NCBI RefSeq assembly: GCF_007483665.1
Contig: NZ_VIQO01000013.1
Span: 186,001 to 250,000, forward strand
Source: Catellatospora sichuanensis
GTDB taxonomy: Bacteria; Actinomycetota; Actinomycetes; Mycobacteriales; Micromonosporaceae
Direction: 5' to 3'
Length of the DNA stretch: 64,000 bases
The notes beneath the pieces were generated by a model, which was not told the origin of the DNA, searched no databases, and saw only the letters and a list, made by a program, of their open reading frames with translations. The position numbers and the translations under genes are program-made. Position 1 is the stretch's first letter. The number at the start of each line of letters is the position of its first letter. This document shows, one piece after another, positions 14,747 through 18,003 of this stretch.

Positions 14747-14819
14747 GCCCTCATCGTCTAGCGGCCTAGGACGCCGCCCTTTCAAGGCGGTAGCACGGGT
14801 TCGAATCCCGTTGGGGGCA
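14747..14819 (+). tRNA. tRNA-Glu (anticodon TTC)
   Basis: The acceptor GCCCTCA pairs with TGGGGGC (one wobble), the anticodon stem-loop is CGCCCTTTCAAGGCG with TTC, and the T arm is ACGGG-TTCGAAT-CCCGT. The 3' CCA is not encoded, unlike the next two tRNAs. It is the first gene of a Glu-Asp-Phe cluster typical of actinobacteria. Confidence 0.95.
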
Positions 14820-14873
14820 CGAACCGGGACCTGATAAGGTCTCCGGGAGCAAGAAGAGCAAGTGCAAGTGCAA

Positions 14874-14950
14874 GGTCCTGTGGAGCAGTTGGAGTGCTCG
14901 CCGCCCTGTCAAGGCGGAGGTCGCGGGTTCAAGTCCCGTCAGGACCGCCA
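14874..14950 (+). tRNA. tRNA-Asp (anticodon GTC)
   Basis: The acceptor GGTCCTG pairs with CAGGACC, the anticodon stem CCGCC/GGCGG encloses CTGTCAA (GTC), and the T arm is GCGGG-TTCAAGT-CCCGT. The discriminator G is followed by an encoded CCA. Confidence 0.95.
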
Positions 14951-14977
14951 ATGTTCGGCCACCCCCTGGGTGGTTTC

Positions 14978-15054
14978 GGCCAGGTAGCTCAGTTGGTACG
15001 AGCGTCCGACTGAAAATCGGAAGGTCGGCGGTTCGACCCCGCCCCTGGCCACCA
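14978..15054 (+). tRNA. tRNA-Phe (anticodon GAA)
   Basis: The acceptor GGCCAGG pairs with CCTGGCC, the anticodon loop CTGAAAA (GAA) sits on CCGA/TCGG, the T arm contains GTTCGACCC, and ACCA is encoded at the 3' end. It is the last tRNA of the cluster and precedes a strong terminator. Confidence 0.95.
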
Positions 15055-15885: not shown

Positions 15886-16275
15886 TCAGGATTCGCGGCG
15901 GCGTTTGGTGGCTACGGTGGAGCCGGCCAGCATGAGCAGGCACTGGGGGAGCTGCCCGTCGGCCAGCGCGGCCCCGATGAGGGCCTCGCCGGTGGGCTCG
16001 TCCCGGTTGACGTAGGCGCTGACGAAGCGGGCCACCCAGCGGGTGTCGTACGCCGCCTCGTCAATGCCGGGGAAGTCGAGCGCCCAGGCGCCCGCCCGGA
16101 CGCCGTCGCCGGCCAGTTCGCCGGCCAGGCACCAGGCGACGTTGTAGGCGCCCGAACTGCCGTCGCGTTTCACCACCTCGTCGAGGGTGCCTGCCACCGC
16201 TCTGCCGTCCCCGGCGAGTGCCTGGTCAAGCACGAGAGCGGCGTCCTCGAAGGAGTGGTCTGGATCGACGGTCAC
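15886..16275 (-). CDS. Hypothetical helical protein
   Basis: 129 residues, predicted all-alpha from its Ala/Leu-rich amphipathic pattern (DAALVLDQALAGDGRAVAGT, then YNVAWCLAGELAG and GEALIGAALADGQLPQCLLM), with a basic tail KRRRES. No signal peptide or membrane helix. The GTG at 16275 is supported by TAGGCT ending 6 nt upstream, a leaderless arrangement. I recognise no domain and propose no function. Confidence 0.65.
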   Translation of the reverse strand: MTVDPDHSFEDAALVLDQALAGDGRAVAGTLDEVVKRDGSSGAYNVAWCLAGELAGDGVRAGAWALDFPGIDEAAYDTRWVARFVSAYVNRDEPTGEALIGAALADGQLPQCLLMLAGSTVATKRRRES

Positions 16276-16403: not shown

Positions 16404-17732
16404 ATGCGTTTTTCGCGAGCTGTCATCGCCGCTGCCTGCGTCTCGCTGCTCAGCCTGTCCGCCTGCAGCTCAACGCCGGACGATTCCCAGGACCCGGCGT
16501 ACCAGGGGGCGTACCTCTACGGCACCGACGGCAACATGGCGAACGAGTTCGGCGCGGCCTTCAAGGAGCAGCCCGGCCTGCTCAACGGCATGAAGGGCAC
16601 GCTGCCGCTGACCGAGCTGGACGAGTCGTTCCTGCAGCGGCTCAAATCGATCAAACCCGGCCTGAAGGACCTGCTGTACGCCGGCGAGGCGTACGACGCG
16701 GTCGCGATCAGCGCGCTGGCCGCCCAGCAGGCCGGCAGCACCGAGCCCGCGAAGATTGCCAAGTTCATCAACGCGGTGACCGTGGGCGGCAACATCTGCC
16801 GCAGCATCAAGCAGTGCCTCGCCCTGGCCGAGGACGGCAAGCCGATCTCCTACCGAGGCGTGACCGTGCGGTACGGCTTCGCCGAGGTCGGCGAGCCCGC
16901 GACCACCAGCTACGGCACCATGCACTTCGACTCCGGCAACCAGCTCGACAACGGCAAGACCGAGTACCTCGGCACCGGCAACGAGCGGAACGTGACCGCG
17001 CAGAAGCCGCCGACGCCGGTGAAGAACGGCACCACCGACAAGCAGCTGATCTTCGGCGGCCTGCTGCCGAAGACCGGCTCGCTGGCCTACACCACGCCGC
17101 CGATGGAGGCGGGCGCCCTGCTCGCGGTCGCGGAGGTCAACGCCGCGGGCGGCGTGCTCGGCAAGCCCGTGAAGTGGATCGACGGCGACGACGGCACGTC
17201 GCCGGTGAAGGCCAAGGCCACCATCGAGAGCCACCACGCGGCCGGGGTCCAGGTGCTGATCGGCCCGGGTGCCTCCGGTATCGCGCTCGCCACGCTGCCG
17301 GAATCGATCAAGTACGGCATGGTCATGTTCTCGCCCTGCAACACCTCGGCCGACCTGACCGGCTACGAGGACAAGGGCCTGTACTTCCGCACCGCCCCCT
17401 CGGACGTGCTGCAGGCGCGGGCACTGGCCGACGTGATGCTGCGCGACGGCCTGCAGAAGGTCGCGATCGTCACGCACAGCGACAACTACGGCAAGAAGCT
17501 CGCCGAGGGTGTCACCAAGGAACTGGTCAAGGCCGGCGTCAGCGAGGTCGACGTGCAGACGTACGTCTACGAGATCACCGACGGCGGCGAGGTCAAGGAC
17601 GAGGCCGAGCTCTCGAAGATCGCCAACCAGGTCATCCCGACGAGGCCCGACGGGGTGCTCGTCATCGGCTATGCCGAGTCTGCCGGCGCGATCAAGGCGC
17701 TCGCCGCGGCCGGTGCCAAACTCCGCCACTAA
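16404..17732 (+). CDS. Substrate-binding lipoprotein with circularly permuted type-I periplasmic-binding (LivJ-like) fold
   Basis: 442 residues from ATG 16404, preceded by GGAGG. The lipoprotein signal ends LLSLSAC with lipidated Cys21. Branched-chain amino-acid-type binding proteins normally begin with a segment like GLLPKTGSLA and end with the second lobe carrying YDAV. Here the order is reversed: residues about 33-195 (GAYLYGTDGNMANEF ... EAYDAVAISALAA ... YRGVTVRYGF) match the C-terminal part of such proteins. A linker rich in Lys/Pro/Thr follows, and residues about 214-442 (LIFGGLLPKTGSLAY ... GPGASGIALATLPE ... VAIVTHSDNYG ... DGVLVIGYAESAGAI) match the N-terminal part, ending at the loop where the C-terminal part would normally continue. 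The frame is intact. No permease or ATPase lies nearby. The ligand is unknown. Confidence 0.8.
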   Translation: MRFSRAVIAAACVSLLSLSACSSTPDDSQDPAYQGAYLYGTDGNMANEFGAAFKEQPGLLNGMKGTLPLTELDESFLQRLKSIKPGLKDLLYAGEAYDAVAISALAAQQAGSTEPAKIAKFINAVTVGGNICRSIKQCLALAEDGKPISYRGVTVRYGFAEVGEPATTSYGTMHFDSGNQLDNGKTEYLGTGNERNVTAQKPPTPVKNGTTDKQLIFGGLLPKTGSLAYTTPPMEAGALLAVAEVNAAGGVLGKPVKWIDGDDGTSPVKAKATIESHHAAGVQVLIGPGASGIALATLPESIKYGMVMFSPCNTSADLTGYEDKGLYFRTAPSDVLQARALADVMLRDGLQKVAIVTHSDNYGKKLAEGVTKELVKAGVSEVDVQTYVYEITDGGEVKDEAELSKIANQVIPTRPDGVLVIGYAESAGAIKALAAAGAKLRH

Positions 17733-17766: not shown

Positions 17767-18003
17767 ATGAGCGAGTCCGTGGAGACCCGCGGCGACGACC
17801 GCCGCGACCTGATCAAGGGCGACACCGACAACGACGGCCGTACCGACGTGTGGGTGTCCGACACCGACGGCGACGGCAAGGCCGACCTGTTCCAGTTCGA
17901 CACCGACCACGACGGCGAGGTCGACATCACCCTGGTCGACCTCGACCAGGACGGCACGCCGGAGATCACGGTCGACGGCGACGGCGGCCACGCCCCCAAC
18001 TGA
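17767..18003 (+). CDS. Small DxDxDG calcium-repeat protein
   Basis: 78 residues, strongly acidic, with four copies of a 13-residue unit carrying DxDxDGxx(D/E): DTDNDGRTD (19-27), DTDGDGKAD (32-40), DTDHDGEVD (45-53) and DLDQDGTPE (58-66), plus a partial fifth (DGDGG). These are calcium-binding loops of the EF-hand/thrombospondin-3/FG-GAP type and should form a short rod that folds on binding Ca2+. There is no signal peptide, so as written it is cytosolic. The start ATG 17767 has AAGGAG 5-6 nt upstream. It follows the permuted binding protein by 34 bp and is probably co-transcribed with it. Confidence 0.75.
   Translation: MSESVETRGDDRRDLIKGDTDNDGRTDVWVSDTDGDGKADLFQFDTDHDGEVDITLVDLDQDGTPEITVDGDGGHAPN

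Follow-up and report, generated by a model that had tools for sequence, protein, structure and literature searches.

The window, a stretch of 64,000 nucleotides from Catellatospora sichuanensis (the genus Catellatospora belongs to Micromonosporaceae, Actinomycetota), contains on its forward strand an open reading frame (16404-17732) whose translation is a protein of 442 amino acids with a lipobox cysteine at residue 21. Two small conserved genes flank it. The divergent one, on the reverse strand (15886-16275), encodes 129 amino acids, has no Pfam match at E 0.01 and recurs in 44 of the 50 loci from the window's family (43 of the 49 distinct ones). The downstream one, on the forward strand (17767-18003), encodes an acidic protein of 78 amino acids with DxDxDG repeats and a weak, below cut-off similarity to FG-GAP_3, and recurs in 43 of 50 loci (42 of 49 distinct). 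A cluster of tRNA-Glu, tRNA-Asp and tRNA-Phe genes lies upstream of the locus (14747-15054, forward strand).

Order of parts in the window protein

The protein begins with a predicted lipoprotein signal peptide (residues 1-20) and the putative lipid-carrying Cys21 (16404-16466; all features of the protein are on the forward strand), the cysteine being invariant in an alignment of 27 permuted rows and its lipobox predicting lipidation. A short spacer (residues 22-34, 16467-16505) separates the lipid anchor from the fold; the median length up to the profile match is 14 amino acids in 54 family members. The former C-terminal part now comes first (residues 35-190, 16506-16973) and contains the DGN motif and two cysteines, Cys132 and Cys138, both present in 58 of 58 permuted sequences. 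A linker (residues 191-213, 16974-17042) connects the former C- and N-termini; between the two profile matches 84 permuted sequences have 7-36 amino acids, with a median of 22.5. The former N-terminal part is now last (residues 214-442, 17043-17729) and ends at a cut site, here called site A, which corresponds to residue ~222 of the leucine-binding protein.

The Pfam profile Peripla_BP_6 matches the window protein at residues 218-440 with its positions 5-217 of 343 only (E 6e-31, 108.7 bits against a curated cut-off of 31.7), which means that the N-terminal two thirds of this family sits C-terminally in the window protein. In conventional-order relatives, the C-terminal third corresponds to window residues ~36-183 and comes straight after the other part. 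Phmmer comparison with open reading frames of the fetched loci aligned permuted relatives in one full-length stretch, and the conventional relatives L045-L058 in two stretches in reverse order, with 32-42% identity in each half among the matches listed. Both halves were found in 14 of 15 fetched conventional loci, the fifteenth, outgroup L059, giving a match to the N-part only. The N-part thus does not precede the C-part in the window protein: the order is reversed. The sequence-only reading had proposed such a swap of the halves, and both the Peripla_BP_6 match and the two-stretch alignment bear it out; the borders it gave, 33-195 and 214-442, are correct to within a few residues, and the intact frame with a signal peptide at the new N-terminus agrees with the 442-residue open frame and its lipobox.

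The conventional relatives in Actinomycetota (L045-L058, L149-L154 and others) share with the permuted proteins the two-cysteine insertion and the DGN motif, but differ from the window protein in having the N-part first. The LivJ/LivK branched-chain amino acid binding proteins (1z15, 2lbp, 1usg, 4gnr; Peripla_BP_6) also have the conventional order, unlike the window protein, and these solved Liv-type chains are matched in one stretch by a conventional profile. As judged from these alignments, the window protein is a permuted relative of the Peripla_BP_6, or Liv-type, binding proteins and no standard member of that family.

The ligand pocket appears to have been kept. Equivalents of LivK Ser79, Thr102, Tyr150 and Glu226, which we take to be the ligand-contacting residues, occur in 58 of 58 permuted sequences. 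In the window protein they are Ser291 (17274-17276), Thr314 (17343-17345) and Tyr362 (17487-17489), assigned by alignment, and Asp42 (16527-16529), an Asp in all 58 sequences, equated with Glu226 by motif since the profile alignment is off by two at this place. Because these residues are kept, closure of the permuted protein around a ligand resembling an amino acid is still to be expected. A structure model was built from 8 sequences and has pLDDT below 50 at residues 1-8, 10-14 and 42-49. The VIA-align comparison of this model gave no row over residues 1-181; this search is sequential, so it is silent on the fold of the C-part.

Conservation and neighbourhood in the window's family

The same order in other genomes, a check named in the sequence-only reading, was found at several depths. 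All ten other Catellatospora genomes have the permuted order at 61-92% identity, one of them a single-contig assembly, and among the matches listed it occurs in 52 of 73 genomes of the family, the window's included, and in 4 of the 48 remaining genomes of the same search. In one of the 52 (G067) the match is cut by the contig end at query residue 37. The relatives that bear names are Catellatospora, Micromonospora and one Micromonosporaceae metagenome-assembled genome. An assembly or annotation artefact, for which we found no supporting point, is ruled out by the agreement of the ten same-genus genomes, by the open frame and by pairwise dN/dS of 0.23-0.56 in all five comparisons within Catellatospora; such an artefact retains practically no probability, and chance and assembly error are excluded as causes of the permuted order. 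The aligned sequences and their substitution ratios mark the order as a genuine circular permutation that is conserved and maintained by purifying selection.

Gene neighbourhoods were surveyed with query proteins from a small number of loci, and a match of at least 60 bits was required for a neighbour to be counted. The labels PdtaR, PolA, pyruvate-kinase-like, thioesterase-like, LivF and LivG are ones that we presume to fit the respective query proteins; the LivM and LivH queries were checked against Pfam and are branched-chain amino acid permease components. The permuted loci of the window's family number 50, or 49 distinct ones (L044 and L089 are the same locus); most have flanks of ~5-6 kb, L043 has ~1-5 kb and L010 1.5 kb, and the window spans 64 kb. 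No LivM or LivH match was found in any of these 50 loci within flanks of ~1-6 kb or, for the window, the whole stretch, and the gene has no adjacent LivHMGF permease in these loci; weak similarity to the LivF/LivG ATPases occurs in five loci, the window among them. Both small neighbours are present together in 43 of the 50 permuted family loci, and neither was matched in the conventional and f16 loci surveyed.

We also searched 26 genomes for a cognate LivM. Of these, 15 have one with at least 57% identity, and each also carries either a conventional gene or the permuted gene of f16; it is absent from the other 11, the window's included, where the best LivM has at most 39% identity; among the matches listed, these 11 genomes have the permuted gene and lack a conventional member of the subfamily. 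The window family's protein is most likely an orphan ligand-binding lipoprotein of the cell surface, a putative sensor or scavenger acting with the two conserved small neighbours. Alternatively, it could feed a non-adjacent branched-chain amino acid permease of the same genome and be no orphan sensor. The retained ligand residues and the LivM-like permeases of the window genome, at 31-35% identity, are in agreement with this possibility, which is plausible though somewhat doubtful given that a LivM or LivH match is missing from all 50 family loci (49 distinct, with flanks of ~1-6 kb apart from the window) and a cognate LivM from the 11 tested genomes without a conventional gene (among the matches listed). 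An orphan lipoprotein thus remains our preferred reading, and the long branch to the clade of the window's family (0.57 in the second 82-row tree described below) fits a changed constraint in this family.

Permuted lineages, cut sites and transporter loci

Profile searches for relatives were extended through the order, class and phylum, to 1,569 genomes in total. Among the matches listed, full-length permuted proteins were found beyond the window's family in at least f16, one f13 genome (G124), f39, f49 and f41. In f39, all four genomes of its order have the permuted protein. In f41, 245 genomes were searched and 70 gave a match, of which five are permuted; in the other 65 the N-part was matched in its own single stretch, like that of conventional proteins. 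One f41 genus contains permuted as well as conventional genes. Permuted proteins were also detected in six genomes from the order of G1155 (148 genomes, 32 with a match) and in two genomes of genus g348 in f69 (36 genomes, 23 with a match).

The cuts fall at two places. Site A lies between a helix and the following strand, at residue ~222 of the leucine-binding protein, and is used by three lineages; site B lies ~20 residues further, just after the DGN loop, and is used by two, the group from the order of G1155 and the g348 pair (sequences L175, L176, L211-L215 and L228). Altogether five permuted lineages were distinguished: one comprising the window's family, f16 and L142 (permA), f39 with f49, f41, and the two site-B groups.

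Outside the window's family, LivF/LivG/LivM-like genes adjoin the permuted gene in 22 of 24 loci examined, and the Liv-type neighbourhood of the conventional relatives in Actinomycetota is like this one: such genes adjoin 29 of 30 conventional loci, not counting outgroup L059, which is also in a Liv context. The two permuted loci without Liv genes, L143 and L144 (13.5-14 kb), are second permuted copies in two f16 genomes and perhaps represent a second loss of the link to the transporter. A PdtaR-like gene lies directly upstream of the permuted gene in f16, f41, f49 and L142, as it does beside many conventional genes, and was not seen in the f39 or site-B loci; in L195 the Liv operon is on the other side of the permuted gene. 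The LivH-type permease of L048 (11738-13000, reverse strand) has an N-terminal secreted domain ahead of the permease domain, with similarity to CarboxypepD_reg just below its cut-off (E 1.4e-6), and by eye the LivH genes compared have similar N-terminal stretches whether the binding protein of the locus is conventional or permuted.

For phylogenetic analysis, sequences were reordered to the conventional order. An earlier step used 55 sequences of a set of 94 (39 permuted rows were left out), and an earlier tree 54, outgroup L059 also being removed. The first 82-row tree was chosen from the 94-sequence set and the sequences of the site-B search; in the second, 23 of these 82, including conventional L116, were replaced by 23 newer ones. 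The first tree needs six changes of order, of which strongly supported branches force four; the second needs five, all forced by such branches, with bootstrap replicates giving 5-5. In approximately unbiased (AU) tests, a single clade of all permuted sequences is rejected (p-AU 3.5e-42). The three pairings tested, of groups named after the trees were seen, are rejected as well: f39/f49 with f41 (p 0.00023, and 0.00039 on the second tree), f39/f49 with permA (p 0.0013) and the two site-B groups with each other (p 0.004, an eight-row test). On the 54-row tree, without site-B rows, the values were 2e-69 for all permuted sequences together and 0.04 for f39/f49 with f41. Trees of the N-part and of the C-part alone need six changes each, strong branches forcing only three and two, respectively; permA is split in the former and f39/f49 in the latter.

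In Actinomycetota, the gene for the binding protein that accompanies one livFGMH-type operon is thus conventional in many genomes and permuted in at least five lineages of the gene tree. The conventional order is probably ancestral, because it is the general order of the fold; the tree itself is unrooted and displays the changes, their direction being our interpretation. We are less sure of permA as a single event: in the second tree it forms one clade (99/90), from which L116 had been dropped, and in the first tree the conventional f8 sequences L149 and L116 fall among its lines. The latter observation, together with the tree being unrooted for order, so that the five changes could mix gains and losses, would suit a different history, in which permutation occurred once and later back-permutation, or gene conversion involving conventional paralogues, produced the conventional members within the tree (whether the halves conflict was judged by grouping in the half trees only). 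We consider this history quite improbable, as the conventional order is general (the solved Liv chains are matched in one stretch, and L059 is in a Liv context), two distinct cut sites are present, and the permuted f41 clade is nested within conventional f41 sequences in both 82-row trees. Several separate permutations remain the favored explanation.

Proposed route of permutation and known systems

In the likely route, the gene would first have been duplicated in tandem, in place; the permuted chain would then remain once the first N-part, the stop codon with the second signal peptide, and the final C-part had been lost. Tandem pairs of conventional genes exist (L150, where two copies lie between the PdtaR-like and Liv genes, and L221/L222), and some permuted proteins (f41, f49) retain the full native C-terminus before the linker; together with the shared neighbourhood, this agrees with a gene duplicated in place and later trimmed. 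Tandem duplication and trimming had been the proposal of the sequence-only reading as well, and its overall reading holds, the conventional pairs being consistent with it; the route itself is deduced, and neither an intermediate nor a remnant was seen. One N-part and one C-part query revealed no remnants of the lost halves beside the permuted genes in the permuted loci. A candidate fused intermediate of double length, a 940-codon open frame in L221 and L222, proved to consist of a tandem pair of distinct conventional genes, each read in its own frame. The upstream tandem copy in L222 is strongly diverged (branch 1.9 in the second 82-row tree).

Taken as a whole, we consider it highly probable that the window gene encodes a membrane-anchored permuted Liv-type protein, that such proteins arose by at least five permutations beside livFGMH genes, probably through duplication in place, with the ligand residues kept, and that in the window's family the permuted copy lies away from its transporter and is most likely an orphan surface lipoprotein.

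The cause of the recurrence is another matter. The signal peptides of the permuted proteins resemble those of their conventional relatives, and since both orders come with lipoprotein signals, tethering by itself cannot explain the order. Permutation may have been neutral, close termini and a duplication-prone locus having supplied permuted forms that drifted to fixation with no gain from the moved lipid anchor. We give this about an even chance: the lipoprotein signals and the same kind of transporter beside both orders are in line with it, as is the occurrence of tandem copies, but recurrence confined to two neighbouring loops suggests a structural or selective focus, which a folding constraint alone could also produce. 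A bolder proposal, and one that we hold rather unlikely, is that one transporter locus in Actinomycetota is a natural laboratory for circular permutation, where at least five in-place permutations of the binding protein occurred at two adjacent loops because shifting the anchor away from the N-lobe and towards the hinge was repeatedly useful, and that one of the forms was then released from its transporter as a novel Micromonosporaceae surface sensor.

A natural circular permutation generally presents itself as one ancient event that left no record of its stages, and repeated permutation is known in DNA methyltransferases. In the present case, several apparently independent permutations fall at two cut sites, share one kind of transporter neighbourhood and can be set against conventional sisters in closely related genomes, which makes both the route and its consequence testable; a single protein family thus offers a means of studying how, and for what reason, evolution rearranges a chain. 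As Pfam matched one part only of the two permuted proteins scanned, further proteins of this kind may be overlooked.

In our literature search, no report of recurrent permutation in the Liv-type family was found in the portions of the sources available, and the portions of PMC3597751, PMC10318531 and PMC9815098 that we obtained describe no natural permuted binding protein. The sole such protein found was MglB-2 (Tp0684) of Treponema pallidum, of Type Ic or Cluster Bc, described in the available part of PMC4990184 as a naturally circularly permuted type I binding protein whose topology also occurs in other treponemes and Gram-positive bacteria, with tethering put forward as a possible reason for the permutation. 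As far as that part of the account goes, Tp0684 and the window protein are alike in having a permuted type I fold and a lipid tether, which in the window protein is predicted. They differ in that Tp0684 binds sugar and carries the initial three strands of the N-lobe at its C-terminus, whereas in the window protein the whole first two thirds has moved, so that it does not conform to Type Ic; the present proteins are cut at residue ~222 of the leucine-binding protein or ~20 residues further on, and Tp0684 is cut elsewhere.
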